A stretch of DNA of 64,000 nt from Thermodesulfobacteriota bacterium (GTDB lineage: Bacteria; Desulfobacterota_D; UBA1144; Nemesobacterales; CSP1-2), in assembly GCA_035559815.1 (NCBI GenBank), contig DATMAT010000037.1, positions 1 through 64,000 of the forward strand, read 5' to 3'. A program made the translations under genes and the position numbers. Below, piece after piece: positions 5,160 to 63,968 of the stretch. Within the stretch, counting starts at the first letter, position 1, and each line of letters begins with the position of its first letter. The notes below the pieces were generated by a model. The model was not told the DNA's origin. It saw only the letters and a list, made by a program, of their open reading frames with translations, and searched no databases.

Positions 5160-7772
5160 TCAGAACCAGGTGGCTGCTTCGTAGCTATGCTCCATGAGCC
5201 ACTGTTTTATATCCTCGCGGTCGCGCTTTAGCACGGCAATATTGAGCCTGATGGTCTCGAGCGACTGCTTTATGGTGCGCTTTGCCCCCGGCACCTTGTG
5301 GGTTTTGAAGAAGTGGTTGACGTCCCGTAATTTGTCGGACGTGGCAAAGGCGGTGGTCGTACCTTCTATAATCCTTCCAATCAGGAAAAGACCGCCTTCA
5401 TGGTAACGGTCCATGAGCATCTGCCACTTTTCTTTGACAAACTCCCAGGCGATGCTCCTGCCCTTGGGGTTCTGTCCGATGTGGGTGAGCGCGATGGGCA
5501 AATCCTGGGGGCGTACCTTTTCGGAGAAAGCGAACTCCAGTACGGTCCTCAGAATTTCTTCAGCCTGGAAGTTCCCGATTGCCGCTAAAATTCTGTTCTT
5601 CTCCTCATGGAGGTCTGTCCGGTCATAAAGATTAAGCAGCTTTTCCAGTTCCTCCTGGCCGCCGTTTTCCGCAACCAGTGAATAAACTGGAGACTTCAGG
5701 TCGGGGTCCAGGCTGCCTCCGGTGATATAGCTCTCGAAGCGGTTCCTGGCCTCTCCGATCGTGGCCTCGTCCCCATAGCCGCCGAGATTTCTCAGCGCAA
5801 GCGACCTCAACATCACGTCAAGATGGCTGTCCCCGGGCGATTTGTCCCACCCCTTTGAATGGGCGATATGCCGGAAAAGCTCCCGGGCAAAGATGTTGAA
5901 TGCGTCCTTCCAGGCTTCCTCGGCGAGAAGGATGCTGAGATATCTCAGGTTCTTGGATATGGTCGTCCACACACTGAAGTCAGTTTCGTTGCGGTAGGCG
6001 CTTAACACGCTGAGCGCCTGGGACGTTTTCGTGTAACCGGCACGGGAGAGCGCAAAGACATCATCCAGAAATCCCAGTCGGTCAACCGTACCTAGCTCTC
6101 CTGATTCGACTGCACCGATGAGCTTTGAAAGGAGGTCCGGTGAGTAGAGCACCCGGTAGAACCCGCTCTGCGACGGATTTAGCTTGACCCACCCATCAGC
6201 CCCGGCTCCGAGCGGGAAATCCATTCTTTGACCTTCCATATATGTGAATACCGGGTCCCCCGAATTCGAGGTTAAAACCCCTACCGGTATTTTCCAGGTT
6301 AGGTTTTCCCTATCTTTGGAGCCGTCGACGATGAACCGCTTCTGCTCCAGGCTGAGCACCTGCTCATCCCCGCGCTTTTCACTTTTCACGAGTACGACCG
6401 GATAGCCGGGCTGTTTTGTGTAGCTGGCCATGATCGCCCTAACCGGTTTTCCGGAGACCTCTTCGAGCGCCTGCCACAGGTCCTCGGTCTTGGCGTTGTT
6501 GTAGGAATGGCGGTTGAGATAGGTATTGAGCCCCCTTCTGAAATCCTCTTCCCCCAGATAATGCTCGATCATGCGGTTTACCACCGAACCCTTCCTGTAC
6601 GTTATAGCATCGAATAGCTCGCTGATCTCGTAGGGGTTCCTGACCGGGACCTCCACCGGGTGGGTATTTTTCAGACTGTCCTTGTGTAGGGCGATGAGGA
6701 AATCGTCGGCAACGTACTGCGTCCAAACATTCCAGTCCGGAAACTGGCAGTCTACGGCCTTAGGGCCCATGTAAGAGGCGAAACCCTCGTTTAGCCAGAG
6801 GTCGTCCCACCATTGCATAGTCACCAGGTTGCCAAACCACTGGTGGGCAAGCTCATGGTCCACGACTTCAGCTACGCGCTGCTTGGCAGTGACCGCGGAA
6901 TTTACCGGGTCAACCAGCATCGCCGTCTCACGGTAGGTTATAAGCCCCCAGTTCTCCATGGCCCCGGCGGCAAAATCCGGAAGCGAGACCATATCCAGCT
7001 TGGGAAGCGCATAGGGGATGCCAAACCATTCGGAAAAATAGGGAAGCGTATGGAGTGCACAATCGAGGGAGAATCGGCCCTGCTCTTTCTTACCCGGGGT
7101 AGTCCACACCCTGACCGGCACACCGTTTCTATCCGTGGACTCGATCGACTCAAGGTCGGCAACGACGAATGCCAGGAGGTAGGTGGACATGATGGGGGTG
7201 GTGTCGTAGGTAACCCGTTTGAAGCCGGAACCCATCGGCTCCTCACCGACCACCGGCATATTGGAGAGGGCGGTCAAATGCTCGGGTACAACCAGCGAAA
7301 CGGTGAACTCCGCCTTCCTCGCCGGTTCGTCCCAGCATGGAAACGCCCGGCGCGCATCGGTTGCTTCGAACTGGGTGGCAGCGCCATATTTTTTAACGCC
7401 GTTCAGATTGTAGGAAGTACGGTAGAAGCCGTGCATCTTGTCGTTGAGCTTCCCCTCGAACTCTATGTTCAGGTTTGCTCCGCCCTGTATTTTTTTACCG
7501 AAATCAAACGTGACCGTTTCCTTCTTTTTGTCTGCGGTGATTTTCCCGGCCTCAATAACCTGTCCGCCGGCCATCAACCAGGCTTTCTTAATTTCCAGGT
7601 CGACCGCATGAAGGGTGATTCTGGAACTGGGCCCTTTGATAGTAATGCTCACATCCTCCTTCCCGTGAAATGTAAAGTTGTCCAGGTCTATCTTGAATTC
7701 AAGCCGGTAATGTACCGGCTCGACAACGTCGGGCAAAAGAATCGGATTCCTCTTTTTTTCCGTTTTAATCAT
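5160..7772 (-). CDS. M1 family zinc metallo-aminopeptidase
   Basis: An 870-residue aminopeptidase of the M1 (aminopeptidase N / ERAP-like) family, removing N-terminal residues from peptides. Seen: the exopeptidase motif GAMEN at residues 270-274, the zinc motif H306-E307-L-A-H310 with the third ligand E329 eighteen residues on (WLNEGFASY), and an N-terminal beta domain (PVHYRLEFKIDLDNFTFHG) and long C-terminal ERAP1-like helical region. The length is that of the eukaryote-like M1 branch. No signal peptide is visible, so a cytoplasmic site is expected. It stands alone on the minus strand after an AAGAGAGGAAGCACAA ribosome-binding region. All catalytic residues are present. Confidence 0.96.
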   Translation of the reverse strand: MIKTEKKRNPILLPDVVEPVHYRLEFKIDLDNFTFHGKEDVSITIKGPSSRITLHAVDLEIKKAWLMAGGQVIEAGKITADKKKETVTFDFGKKIQGGANLNIEFEGKLNDKMHGFYRTSYNLNGVKKYGAATQFEATDARRAFPCWDEPARKAEFTVSLVVPEHLTALSNMPVVGEEPMGSGFKRVTYDTTPIMSTYLLAFVVADLESIESTDRNGVPVRVWTTPGKKEQGRFSLDCALHTLPYFSEWFGIPYALPKLDMVSLPDFAAGAMENWGLITYRETAMLVDPVNSAVTAKQRVAEVVDHELAHQWFGNLVTMQWWDDLWLNEGFASYMGPKAVDCQFPDWNVWTQYVADDFLIALHKDSLKNTHPVEVPVRNPYEISELFDAITYRKGSVVNRMIEHYLGEEDFRRGLNTYLNRHSYNNAKTEDLWQALEEVSGKPVRAIMASYTKQPGYPVVLVKSEKRGDEQVLSLEQKRFIVDGSKDRENLTWKIPVGVLTSNSGDPVFTYMEGQRMDFPLGAGADGWVKLNPSQSGFYRVLYSPDLLSKLIGAVESGELGTVDRLGFLDDVFALSRAGYTKTSQALSVLSAYRNETDFSVWTTISKNLRYLSILLAEEAWKDAFNIFARELFRHIAHSKGWDKSPGDSHLDVMLRSLALRNLGGYGDEATIGEARNRFESYITGGSLDPDLKSPVYSLVAENGGQEELEKLLNLYDRTDLHEEKNRILAAIGNFQAEEILRTVLEFAFSEKVRPQDLPIALTHIGQNPKGRSIAWEFVKEKWQMLMDRYHEGGLFLIGRIIEGTTTAFATSDKLRDVNHFFKTHKVPGAKRTIKQSLETIRLNIAVLKRDREDIKQWLMEHSYEAATWF

Positions 7773-60819: not shown

Positions 60820-61834
60820 ATTCTCTTATCAAGACCTCGGCTATTTGAATCGCGTTAAGCGCTGCACCTTTTCTCAACTGGTCTCCGGATACCCAGAAAC
60901 TAAGGCCAGCCGGAACCGTATAGTCCTCCCTGATTCTTCCTACCAGGCAATCGTCTTTTCCGGCTGCATCTAGTGGCATGGGATATTTCGAATTTTGGGG
61001 TTCATCTACCACCTTAACTCCGGGAAAATTACTCAAGGCTTTTCGCGCTTCCTGAGGAGAGATTTTTCTCTCCGTTTCGATAGTTACAGCCACAGAATGG
61101 GCTCGAAATACAGGGACCCTTACCGTCGTAGCAGTCACCTGAATTGAATCGTCTTCCAGGATCTTTCTGGTTTCGTTGTGAAGCTTCATCTCCTCTTTTG
61201 TGTAACCGTTTTCGAGAAAAGTATCTATATGCGGCAGGAGGTTGAACGCTATTTGGTGAGGAAAAACTCCGCTCTTCATTGGCTCGCCCTTAGCCCAGGC
61301 CAGGGTTTGCAGTCGAAGTTCCTCTATAGCCTGAGCACCTGCTCCGGAGACAGCCTGATAGCTGGCCGCAACCACCCTTTTTATCCTGGCTAGGTCATGG
61401 ATAGGTTTGAGGGCCATGACGGTCACGGCAGTGGTGCAGTTTGGATTGGCGATTATGCCTCTTAATTGGTAATCCGCTACTCGATGGGCATTTATTTCCG
61501 GAATAACAAGCGGGACGTCGGGCTCCATGCGGAAGGCTGAGCTATTGTCAACCACAACCGCTCCCGAATCAACCGCGACGGGGGCGAATTCTCTACTTCT
61601 CGATGCCCCTGCCGAAAAAAGAGCAATGTCGATGTTTTTGAAGGAGGTATGGCCGAGTTTATGAACCTTTATCGCGTTGCCCTTGAATTGAAACTCCATT
61701 CCCTGGGATTTTTCAGACGCCATTAGTCTTAATTCATCTACCGGGAAATTTCTCTCCTGGAGTATTTGAATCATCTCCTGCCCAACGGCGCCGGTCGCCC
61801 CTACTATGGCGACCTTATAGCTTTCCTTTTTCAT
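60812..61834 (-). CDS. asd: Aspartate-semialdehyde dehydrogenase
   Basis: A 340-residue Asd, converting aspartyl phosphate to aspartate semialdehyde with NADPH for lysine, threonine and methionine synthesis. Seen: the NADP-binding KVAIVGATGAVGQEMIQIL, the catalytic cysteine in IANPNCTTAVTVMALKP, QAVSGAGAQAIEEL and the late substrate site VRVPVFRAHSVAVTIE with H. Full length. A GGAGGTAGTGT site leads the start. It is followed by the PH-like gene and dapA; rpiB is upstream in the same direction. Confidence 0.98.
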   Translation of the reverse strand: MKKESYKVAIVGATGAVGQEMIQILQERNFPVDELRLMASEKSQGMEFQFKGNAIKVHKLGHTSFKNIDIALFSAGASRSREFAPVAVDSGAVVVDNSSAFRMEPDVPLVIPEINAHRVADYQLRGIIANPNCTTAVTVMALKPIHDLARIKRVVAASYQAVSGAGAQAIEELRLQTLAWAKGEPMKSGVFPHQIAFNLLPHIDTFLENGYTKEEMKLHNETRKILEDDSIQVTATTVRVPVFRAHSVAVTIETERKISPQEARKALSNFPGVKVVDEPQNSKYPMPLDAAGKDDCLVGRIREDYTVPAGLSFWVSGDQLRKGAALNAIQIAEVLIREYV

Positions 61835-61876
61835 ACACTACCTCCAAACGATTATCAGAAACAGTCCGTGTATTAG

Positions 61877-62320
61877 CTAGCGACTATACTTCTTTTCGAT
61901 TAATTTCACCCTATCTATGTTTGGGATTTCCTCTTTTTCCACACTTGAATTGAACCAAGCCTCGAGAATTTCTTTAGCCACGACCGGTGAAGTTAGCCTC
62001 AAACTCATCGCCAGCACGTTTGCATCGTTCCACTTCCTGGCGCCGCTAGCAGTTTGTGCATCCACACATAAAGCGGCCCTTATTCCCGGAACCTTATTCG
62101 CCGCCATGCTGACCCCGGTTCCGGTCCAGCAAAAGAGTATTCCTTGGTCGCAAACTCCATCGGCAACCCTTTCCGCCACTTTTTCGGCTACCTCCGCCCA
62201 CTGCATTGATTCCCCGGCTAGCGGTCCATAAAGCTCCAGCTCGACACCTTTTTTCTCTAGCTCGTTGATAACGAAGTCAGTAAGGGGCGTGCGCTCGTCG
62301 CTCCCAACAGCTATTTTCAT
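61877..62320 (-). CDS. rpiB: RpiB/LacAB family sugar-phosphate isomerase
   Basis: A 147-residue isomerase of the RpiB/LacA/LacB family, interconverting ribose-5-phosphate and ribulose-5-phosphate or related aldose/ketose phosphates. Seen: MKIAVGSDERTPLTDFVINE, GILFCWTGTGVSMAANKVPG with the active cysteine, and ARKWNDANVLAMSLRLTSP. The motif TGTGVSMAANK and the DANVLA region are diagnostic. A longer frame to 62380 exists but AGAGGTG precedes the ATG at 62320, so the shorter start is chosen. The sugar specificity may differ from Rpi because the tail is atypical. Confidence 0.93.
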   Translation of the reverse strand: MKIAVGSDERTPLTDFVINELEKKGVELELYGPLAGESMQWAEVAEKVAERVADGVCDQGILFCWTGTGVSMAANKVPGIRAALCVDAQTASGARKWNDANVLAMSLRLTSPVVAKEILEAWFNSSVEKEEIPNIDRVKLIEKKYSR

Positions 62321-62433
62321 GGCAAACACCTCTTTCTCTTTTGTGTTTAGTAGTTTAAATCGATTGTATGAAAGGTTCAAGAAAGAGCCTGGTGCGACCT
62401 GGGCAGTATATTTATCGTGCTGGCAGGAATGGT

Positions 62434-62778
62434 TTACACACCCCTGTCGGCATGTCTATATTTAATAATCTTTACCTTTTCCATCGTAACCAACCCTTCC
62501 CTCACCGTTTCGTTAAGAAAAGGTAAAATCCTATTCAAATTCTCCTCAGTATCCACTAGCTCTATGACAATCGGTAAGTCCTCGGATAGCCGAAGTAGTT
62601 TAGCGGTGTGTATGCGACTATTAGCGCCAAACCCCATTATACCGCGAATAACCGTGGCCCCGGCCAGGTTTAACTCCCTTGCTTTAAGCACAATCTCTTC
62701 ATAAAGAGCCCTCCCTTTATGGCTATCCGTCTCACCAATAAATATCCTCAGTAGCAACCCCTCTTCGGGCAAGTTCAT
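62434..62778 (-). CDS. DUF190 (UPF0166, PII-like) protein
   Basis: A 114-residue protein of the DUF190 family, with a predicted PII-like ferredoxin fold. Seen: GLLLRIFIGETDSHKGRALYEEI at the start, AGATVIRGIMGFGANSRIH, and DLPIVIELVDTEENLNRIL. It starts 12 bases after the crcB stop codon with GGAGGGCAGAAAA before its ATG. DUF190 genes commonly accompany crcB, and this one shares its fluoride-controlled transcript, so a role in fluoride handling or regulation of the channel is inferred; the mechanism is unknown. Confidence 0.92.
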   Translation of the reverse strand: MNLPEEGLLLRIFIGETDSHKGRALYEEIVLKARELNLAGATVIRGIMGFGANSRIHTAKLLRLSEDLPIVIELVDTEENLNRILPFLNETVREGLVTMEKVKIIKYRHADRGV

Positions 62779-62790
62779 TTTTCTGCCCTC

Positions 62791-63177
62791 CTATTTAAAA
62801 AGACCGATTAAATATCTGGAGATAACAAAGCCACAAAAAACCAGTACTAATCCCAATATATTACTCGCTAACATATTAAATATAGCAAATTTAATTTCAC
62901 CCTCCCGAAGAAGGTTAAAGCTCTCCAGGCCATAAGTAGAAAAAGTGGTGAAAGCACCCAGAGTACCTATGAAAATAAATGCTCTGGTGCTGGGTGAAAT
63001 AACCATTATTTCGAACAATTGCCAGAGAAACCCGATCAAGAAACAGCCAGCCAGGTTAACGATTAATGTCCCCCAGGGAAGTACTCCGTCCAAATATTTG
63101 TAGGTAAGGCCCGAAATAGCATATCGAAGCAAAGCCCCGGAGGCTCCGCCAATTGCGATAAGTAGTAGCTTTAACAT
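62791..63177 (-). CDS. crcB: Fluoride efflux channel CrcB/Fluc
   Basis: A 128-residue four-helix membrane protein of the Fluc family that exports fluoride as a dual-topology dimer. Seen: GGASGALLRYAISGL at the start, WGTLIVNLAGCFLIGFL with the conserved N, and GTLGAFTTFSTYGLES with the phenylalanine box and Na+-site region, then a C-terminal hydrophobic end LVLVFCGFVISRYLI. The fluoride riboswitch 110 bases upstream on the same strand confirms the role. DUF190 gene follows directly. Confidence 0.97.
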   Translation of the reverse strand: MLKLLLIAIGGASGALLRYAISGLTYKYLDGVLPWGTLIVNLAGCFLIGFLWQLFEIMVISPSTRAFIFIGTLGAFTTFSTYGLESFNLLREGEIKFAIFNMLASNILGLVLVFCGFVISRYLIGLFK

Positions 63178-63285
63178 TCTTTTTCTCCCGGATACATAGC
63201 AATGTGAGTATTCAAGGTCATATTTTGCTATCTTTGGTCGATCCGATTAAGGCTTACAGCCCTTATTTTAAGGATTAGATTTTTA

Positions 63286-63345
63286 CGAGGAGTCATCAAC
63301 TATCCAGGCAAGGATAGTGGTTGGAGGTGAACCCCATCACCTATT
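63286..63345 (-). promoter_or_regulatory. Fluoride (crcB motif) riboswitch
   Basis: Read on the minus strand: GGTGATGGGGTTCACC at about 63341-63326, then an ACTATCC/GGATAGT stem (63319-63313 with 63305-63299), then TGATGACTCCTCG to 63286. These elements, GATG + G-rich P1, hairpin P2 and the terminal TGATGACTCCT, are the invariant parts of the fluoride riboswitch that forms a pseudoknot and opens expression when fluoride binds. It precedes crcB, as expected. No clear terminator hairpin stem with a T-run was found between it and crcB, so control may be translational or use a less obvious hairpin. Confidence 0.92.
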
Positions 63346-63464
63346 TCATTTAATCATATACGTAAATTCCTATCAGTCAATGCTATACCCTTTTCATGAT
63401 ATTACCGAGAGCACCACAATTCGGAGAGAAATATGTTATGTATTTTACGAGTTAATCAAAAAGG

Positions 63465-63491
63465 TTGACCTTCTATACTTTTTTCTATAAT
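63465..63491 (+). promoter_or_regulatory. Sigma-70-like promoter of the GAF-protein gene
   Basis: TTGACC at 63465-63470 and TATAAT at 63486-63491 with a 15-base spacer; a slightly shifted TAATAT (63488-63493) gives 17. TTGACC overlaps the first possible start codon (TTG at 63465), so that start cannot be used on a transcript from here; a downstream start is needed. Consensus match only. Confidence 0.6.
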
Positions 63492-63518
63492 ATATGCTGC
63501 ACAGGGAGGAGCAAGAAG

Positions 63519-63968
63519 ATAGATTACAAGGAGTTGGATAGACGAATCTCAGAAGTATTTGGTTTAGGCCAAAATTGTGTCTTTACACTCACCCTTGACA
63601 AACATGGGACCCTTTTGGAATTTGCCTACCCCCCCAAGCTGATAAAAAACAAGGTACCTGTAGATAATAAAACCGTGGTGGGGCGTGCTGTCATAGCTAA
63701 ACGTCCTTACATCTCAAACAATATACAAAAGGAAAGCAGCTCGGTCATACTTAATTGCCTCATGGCAATGGGGACCACCCCGGTTCAAAAATCGATCACC
63801 TACCCAATAGTAATGGGCGAGCGGGTAATCGCGGTTATCCAGGTGGTAAGAAAGGGGGAAAATATTTCGGATGTCGCTGATTTTCAGAAGGAGGACCTGG
63901 AGAAAATCAAATCAGTCCTCGATGACCTGTTTACCCTTCATGTCGTGAAGCCGGCGGCAGGTGAGTAG
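63519..63968 (+). CDS. GAF domain protein, probable non-ATG start
   Basis: About 150 residues with a GAF-like domain: the segment VFGLGQNCVFTLTLDKHGTL, KTVVGRAVIAKRPYISNNI, SITYPIVMGERVIAVIQVV and a C-terminal helix EDLEKIKSVLDDL. GAF domains bind small ligands or redox cofactors; no output domain is present, so it may act as a sensory partner. The annotated start is an ATA at 63519 preceded eight bases earlier by GGGAGGA, which is an unusual but well-positioned choice. The alternative TTG at 63534 has no space to AAGGAG. The longer TTG at 63465 lies inside the promoter and is discarded. Confidence 0.75.
   Translation: MDYKELDRRISEVFGLGQNCVFTLTLDKHGTLLEFAYPPKLIKNKVPVDNKTVVGRAVIAKRPYISNNIQKESSSVILNCLMAMGTTPVQKSITYPIVMGERVIAVIQVVRKGENISDVADFQKEDLEKIKSVLDDLFTLHVVKPAAGE

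Follow-up and report, generated by a model that had tools for sequence, protein, structure and literature searches.

A fluoride riboswitch ahead of a crcB–DUF190 gene pair in a Thermodesulfobacteriota bacterium, with DUF190 as a probable partner of the Fluc channel

The fluoride channel Fluc (CrcB) is a dimer and a channel of dual topology, and SbtB is a PII-like protein that inhibits SbtA, a bicarbonate transporter. The known transporter partners of PII proteins are trimers, according to the accessible part of PMC10710835. Fluoride riboswitches that act on translation have already been described, with B. pseudomallei and P. syringae as the controls (PMC13273304, in part), and in the riboswitches tested in the available portion of PMC11077080 one wobble pair within the pseudoknot is critical for switching. 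DUF190 proteins occur in the acetoin and glycerol clusters of Pelobacter, where they were earlier suggested to modulate transport (PMC3543383, in extract). Two structures of this family have been solved; no established function was found in the literature, and the excerpted passages on DUF190 or UPF0166 are not on fluoride. No publication linking DUF190 to fluoride was found, subscription papers and supplements lying outside the search, so that the link is not claimed to be unpublished. The apparent matches for this pair of terms were on MAST kinases and GABA, and in the abstract of one the string proved to be DUF1908.

The DNA analyzed here, referred to as the window, is a stretch of 64,000 nucleotides from the genome of a Thermodesulfobacteriota bacterium. 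The features listed here all lie on its minus strand:

63353..63380, minus: candidate sigma-70-type promoter, TTGACT-16-TATGAT, 10 of 12 consensus positions matched
63280..63350, minus: fluoride riboswitch aptamer (RF01734), covariance match of 45.1 bits against a gathering threshold of 34
63326..63341, minus: P1 hairpin, GGTG (63341-63338) with CACC (63329-63326) and loop ATGGGGTT, from the covariance match and a script reading
63330..63335, minus: 5′ strand of the pseudoknot, GGGGTT, from a pairing check and a script reading
63299..63318, minus: P2 stem of 7 bp, ACTATCC (63318-63312) with GGATAGT (63305-63299), from the sequence and a script reading
63289..63294, minus: 3′ strand of the pseudoknot, GACTCC, the likely switching strand, from the pairing check and the minimum-energy apo fold
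63190..63279, minus: predicted expression platform, a linker with hairpin AAGGGCTGTAAGCCTT, in which CGGAT (63245-63241) can pair with ATCCG (63193-63189)
63185..63189, minus: Shine-Dalgarno sequence of crcB, GGGAG, 7 nt before the ATG, from the sequence and a script reading
62791..63177, minus: crcB, Fluc fluoride channel, 128 aa (PF02537, 98.6 bits, cut-off 32.9)
62434..62778, minus: DUF190/COG1993 PII-like protein, 114 aa (PF02641, 135 bits, cut-off 23.4)
61877..62380, minus: sugar-phosphate isomerase of the RpiB/LacA-B family (profile match), behind crcB–DUF190 at all 11 class loci, a putative member of the transcript

The first-pass annotation had placed the core of a fluoride riboswitch at 63345-63286, and the covariance search bears this out: the hit is full-length (model positions 1-64), its 45.1 bits exceed the gathering threshold of 34 that had been set beforehand as the test, and the Rfam span is slightly wider than the core. 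The E value is 2.9e-9 across the window and 4.2e-11 in the scan of the whole 3.97-Mb assembly, where 63350-63280 was the sole RF01734 hit. P1, the seven-base-pair P2 and the pseudoknot can all form; in the pseudoknot each of the six positions pairs, four in the standard way and two as G-U wobbles. From its sequence the riboswitch is genuine and routine in kind, and would be expected to respond to fluoride. A transcript from the candidate promoter would begin at about 63346, by the 5′ edge of the aptamer; promoter-like sites in the region number four against 3.6 expected from shuffles, which supports it weakly.

A survey of 24 riboswitches left 22 once L021b and L021c, which could not be parsed for loop 1, were set aside, and all six pseudoknot pairs are kept in 21 of these, L026 having one mismatch. 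By mapping, U63330-G63294 may be the window's counterpart of the critical wobble of PMC11077080, as given in the available portion of that paper. The extra G-U at pseudoknot position 4 recurs in L035, L049, L071 and L021a. In the aptamer at L034:1485-1590 the pseudoknot is altered on both sides (GAGGUU/GACCUC) with its pairs kept, and the downstream anti-strand GGUAGAGGUC is altered along with it, a three-strand compensation.

The two genes behind the leader were placed correctly from the start: crcB had been put about 110 bases downstream (111 bases separate C63289 from the ATG at 63177-63175, and 108 separate it from 63286), with DUF190 12 bases after it in the same direction (63177-62791 and 62778-62434). 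The leader thus precedes a fluoride-response gene. The crcB product matches Fluc chains in the PDB, the best being 5a43 (E 5e-10), and it keeps the Asn of GTLxVN, the Arg of LR and the first Phe, the second Phe being Tyr; these are residues that we take to line the pore of the solved Flucs. Neither a second crcB nor a second DUF190 gene was found in the whole genome.

The mode of control is less plain. That the leader lacks a clear hairpin with a U-run, as the first-pass annotation had it, is upheld by a consensus scan of the minus strand of 61800-63600, which returned no terminator-like site. Its description of this platform as unusual is not upheld, both because translational fluoride riboswitches are known (PMC13273304, in part) and because the likely crcB ATG stands only 14-19 nt past the Rfam aptamer edge in six named relatives, which leaves little room for a terminator. 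(For L032 the ATG 17 nt past the edge was used and an upstream TTG, 2 nt past it, was set aside.) Across the best 80 named DUF190 loci, seven, L034 among them, have the riboswitch directly before crcB, with the likely ATG 14-28 nt past the edge.

The minimum-energy apo fold joins CUCC, in the pseudoknot strand, to GGAG, in the Shine-Dalgarno of crcB, and also joins CGGAU to AUCCG next to it. The Shine-Dalgarno and the pseudoknot strand pair with a probability of 0.42, a value reached or surpassed in 24.5% of 200 shuffles of the linker; blocking the pseudoknot strands raises the unpaired fraction of the Shine-Dalgarno site from 0.16 to 0.30, a gain of 0.14 that 20% of shuffles match. A gapless complement scan put the top partner of the switching strand inside crcB, not at the Shine-Dalgarno. 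With the stability of the whole leader unremarkable (z -0.50) and shuffled linkers often its equal, minimum-energy folding was rejected as proof of the platform.

Translational ON control is the most likely mode for this leader. Without fluoride the CUCC within the free 3′ strand GACUCC would pair with GGAG of the Shine-Dalgarno, and the CGGAU-AUCCG pairing at its upstream edge would assist the masking; fluoride with Mg2+ would lock CUCC into the pseudoknot with loop 1, and the ribosome site would open. CrcB would then export fluoride, and the PII-like DUF190 protein, presumably co-expressed from its start 12 bases downstream, would act on or with the channel. As a whole, the reading of the locus as a fluoride-responsive riboswitch heading a putatively co-transcribed crcB–DUF190 operon, switched on at translation and with DUF190 acting on or with the channel, is one that we hold to be somewhat probable.

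Control of transcription, through a terminator missed by the scan (a weak hairpin with no clear U-run) or through Rho, appears rather unlikely. Terminator-like anti-strands do follow the aptamer in L034, L046, L054 and L025 (in L034 a perfect 10-bp anti-strand, then AUCUUUU), so that both modes occur, and compared by eye the AUCC...GGAU hairpin of the window linker is placed like those in the antiporter leaders of G003 and G005, genomes of sister genera, where the hairpin is followed by U-rich stretches. The window hairpin, however, is followed by CGACCAAAG rather than a U-run, and the consensus scan of 61800-63600 returned nothing like a terminator on the minus strand. A third possibility, to which we give little credence, is that the aptamer binds fluoride and its platform has decayed, leaving control weak or absent. 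The platform statistics are unremarkable, and 45.1 bits lies below most relatives at named and plasmid DUF190 loci (39.9-62.1); yet this score is typical of the aptamer's own family (43-55 bits), the core and the pseudoknot are intact, the Shine-Dalgarno still complements the switching strand, and a leader may work without folding better than its shuffled versions.

The same family yielded six more riboswitches, in G003, G004 and G005. In three of them (one each in G004, G005 and G003) the pseudoknot strand matches a GGUAGG-type sequence beside an AUG over 8-9 bp; the fractions of shuffled linkers that reach the observed pairing are 0.005, 0.000 and 0.010 in that order, and those that reach the opening gain 0.010, 0.200 and 0.010. 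Between the GGUAGG-type sequence and the AUG there is almost no spacer, unlike normal Shine-Dalgarno spacing, and at the G005 and G003 sites the reading frames begun by this AUG are small (88 and 77 aa) and are not those of the named genes. The three sites may therefore not be ribosome sites: the strand exchange looks real from these sequences and its output is uncertain. The other three riboswitches give pairing fractions of 0.305 (G004 crcB, whose ATG stands 39 nt past the Rfam edge), 0.015 (G005 antiporter) and 0.115 (G003 antiporter).

The pairing of crcB with DUF190 extends well beyond the riboswitch. Among the 57 genomes of the class, crcB was matched in 34 and DUF190 in 11, and at all 11 DUF190 loci crcB stands directly upstream, 9-12 bases away, with an rpiB-like gene downstream. 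(The phylum set consisted of the same 57 genomes, and a phylum-wide survey added nothing.) The fluoride riboswitch was detected at two of these 11 loci, in the window genome and in G004; at the other nine it was not detected by a scan whose stricter filters can lose weak matches, L011 having little sequence upstream of crcB. The gene pair therefore appears to be independent of the riboswitch. Named contigs gave at least 583 DUF190 relatives, and the best 80 were considered. On the same strand and within 30 bases crcB lies upstream in 68, and within 232 bases in 75, one of which (L070) is a fragment ORF; of the other five, one is separated from crcB by another gene, two (L060 and L099) run into the end of the contig, and the last two show no crcB in the stretch examined. 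The 80 are those nearest to the query, so DUF190 genes at large may show a different fraction; L041 and L042 share identical DUF190 DNA, and L103 is a contig of the class genome G034. The loci come from many phyla, some archaea included, and their record titles name Omnitrophota, Nitrospirae, Bacteroidales, Acidobacteria, Chloroflexi, Planctomycetes, Spirochaetes and Methanosarcinales among others. Eleven of the 80 carry the riboswitch (6, 2, 2 and 1 per successive 20), and the order riboswitch–crcB–DUF190 recurs in the sister genus G004 and at loci labelled with unrelated phyla. No ORF at the named loci was matched by both profiles as a DUF190-CrcB fusion would be.

On plasmids, eight loci were examined out of 46 plasmid records with DUF190, and crcB adjoins DUF190 in six. 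Seven were scanned for the fluoride riboswitch, which was present in L021, L024, L025 and L026 and not in L020, L022 or L027; in L021 and L026 an antiporter or CLC-type gene comes first behind it and crcB only later. Plasmid pLIS41 of Listeria innocua has the order riboswitch, DUF190, two crcB genes and enolase. As a separate observation, L025:5376-5419(+) matches the Na+ riboswitch RF03071 at 40.9 bits, just above its gathering threshold of 40.5, at the annotated start (5386) of the cation:proton antiporter in the Listeria innocua fluoride cluster.

The two plasmid exceptions bear on whether DUF190 is a mere passenger in the cluster with no role in fluoride handling: in Caulobacter it stands beside a heavy-metal efflux gene, and in Mycobacterium branderi beside enolase without crcB. 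The Pelobacter acetoin and glycerol clusters (PMC3543383, in extract) point the same way, as do the 23 of 34 crcB-bearing class genomes without a DUF190 match. Against this stands a linkage to crcB that spans many phyla while the gene order varies (crcB-crcB-DUF190, crcB-DUF190-crcB, DUF190 first behind the riboswitch), and we regard a passenger role as improbable. On this genomic context DUF190 is probably a working partner of the Fluc channel, and we propose that it modulates Fluc, which extends to this channel the modulation of transport earlier suggested for Pelobacter (PMC3543383, in extract).

Structure prediction is consistent with such a partner. The sequence relatives with structures are PH1503 (2dcl) and TM0021 (1o51). 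The model of the window protein, built on 42 aligned sequences (pLDDT 78.2), gives Z scores of 14.3 and 13.9 to these; outside its own family CPII and SbtB are tied at about 10, with CutA1 at about 9, and in Foldseek the SbtB of the SbtA-SbtB complex ranks next after the DUF190 entries. On the model, DUF190 has a PII-like fold in which strands 2 and 3 are linked by a flexible loop. Residues 48-64, which fall below a pLDDT of 50, include the invariant G49, G51 and H57, and this disorder together with invariant residues is what would be expected of a binding loop. By analogy with SbtB on SbtA and GlnK on AmtB, it may be tentatively proposed that DUF190 is a PII-like sensor that docks on CrcB by its conserved T-loop and, in answer to a cytoplasmic signal, would open, close or tune the export of fluoride, a conjecture that we think doubtful in its particulars.

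The riboswitch also marks genes other than these two. In G003 and G005 no crcB was found. A stretch of about 15 kb in G005 (L108, G005:C101:16000-35500) carries two fluoride riboswitches between asd-rpiB and GAF-suhB, the genes that flank crcB–DUF190 in the window genome. Behind one of them come a Na+/H+ exchanger and a universal-stress-type gene, and behind the other a 149-aa protein, HEAT-repeat proteins, enolase, two DUF6062-like proteins, a phosphoesterase and a dynamin-like GTPase. A comparable set in G003 (L109, G003:C134:1-17000) includes a pyrophosphatase and lies on a contig that does not show those flanks. Pfam supports the exchanger, the pyrophosphatase, HEAT and the DUF6062 of L102, the other names in these islands being readings of the sequences. 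CLC genes were considered as an explanation for fluoride export in G003 and G005 and proved inconclusive, since the CLC family occurs in 38 of the 57 genomes and the fluoride type was not told apart. In the window itself, 63465-63968 (+) encodes a GAF-domain protein (PF13185) transcribed away from the riboswitch, and a close relative of it stands beside a different fluoride riboswitch in G005.

The 149-aa protein belongs to a family found in three of the 57 class genomes (G003, G004 and G005); in each of them its gene follows a fluoride riboswitch in the same orientation, and in G003 it also comes after the pyrophosphatase. It has no match in the window genome, the fourth class genome with the riboswitch, and no Pfam match above cut-off. 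In L046 and L054 it lies between the riboswitch and crcB–DUF190. The family stands behind a fluoride riboswitch, in the same orientation, at each of these five loci:

L014:593-1042, minus: family of about 150 aa
L018:204-653, minus: family of about 150 aa
L016:1796-2272, plus: family of about 150 aa
L046:1474-1989, plus: family of about 150 aa
L054:1575-1994, plus: family of about 150 aa

On these positions the family is a candidate new fluoride-response gene. The search for plasmid relatives of two island proteins gave one HEAT match and none for the 149-aa family. On a Methylocystis plasmid L021:5198-6163(-), a relative of the G003/G005 HEAT-repeat island protein, lies directly past the fluoride riboswitch at 6180-6241(-). 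One MFS transporter family recurs at riboswitch or DUF190 loci (L024:3353-4573(+), L027:3361-4452(+), L108:6757-7764(-), L109:2152-3381(-), L110:5254-6453(+), L043:4028-5197(-)). DUF6062-like genes from differently labelled genomes lie near riboswitches or crcB/DUF190 at L102:1363-2070(+), the one for which Pfam was tested, L056:3316-3966(+), L108:10514-11934(-) and L109:6807-8223(-). The presence of riboswitch islands with families of unassigned function in G003 and G005, which lack a detected crcB, suggests that the fluoride response may exceed exporters and inhibited enzymes. The riboswitch is routine and serves as a marker of fluoride-response genes; DUF190 and the uncharacterized gene set are the more interesting part.

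Compared with the systems described, the aptamer shows no difference in kind from the RF01734 crcB motif: it is a full-length match with P1, P2 and the pseudoknot upstream of crcB, and has the extra G-U at position 4 and a linker of about 100 nt from the Rfam edge to the crcB ATG. The channel likewise carries PF02537 and matches Fluc chains, differing from 5a43 in having TTFSTY in place of STFSTF, the second Phe thus being Tyr. The leader resembles the translational riboswitches of PMC13273304, as far as the accessible part of that paper describes them, in that no terminator-like site was found and the Shine-Dalgarno could be covered without ligand; it differs in that this coverage is predicted only weakly. 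The DUF190 protein belongs by sequence to the family of 2dcl and 1o51, with the model Z scores given above; the titles of these entries are silent on function apart from “putative PII-like signaling protein” for TM0021. An upstream riboswitch in some lineages, with crcB alongside across phyla, gives this family a testable function, namely PII-like regulation of Fluc, and if this is true a widespread family without assigned function joins the fluoride response in bacteria and archaea. With SbtB/SbtA and GlnK-AmtB the locus shares a PII-like fold and a PII-like gene beside that of a membrane transporter; it differs in that the DUF190 protein is only about 13-19% identical to SbtB chains. Fluc, as a dimer, does not share the trimeric form of the known PII partners, and this mismatch of symmetry is the main argument against the reading of DUF190 as acting on Fluc. 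If that reading is true, a dimeric channel of dual topology would have DUF190 as its PII partner, against the trimer rule stated in the accessible part of PMC10710835.
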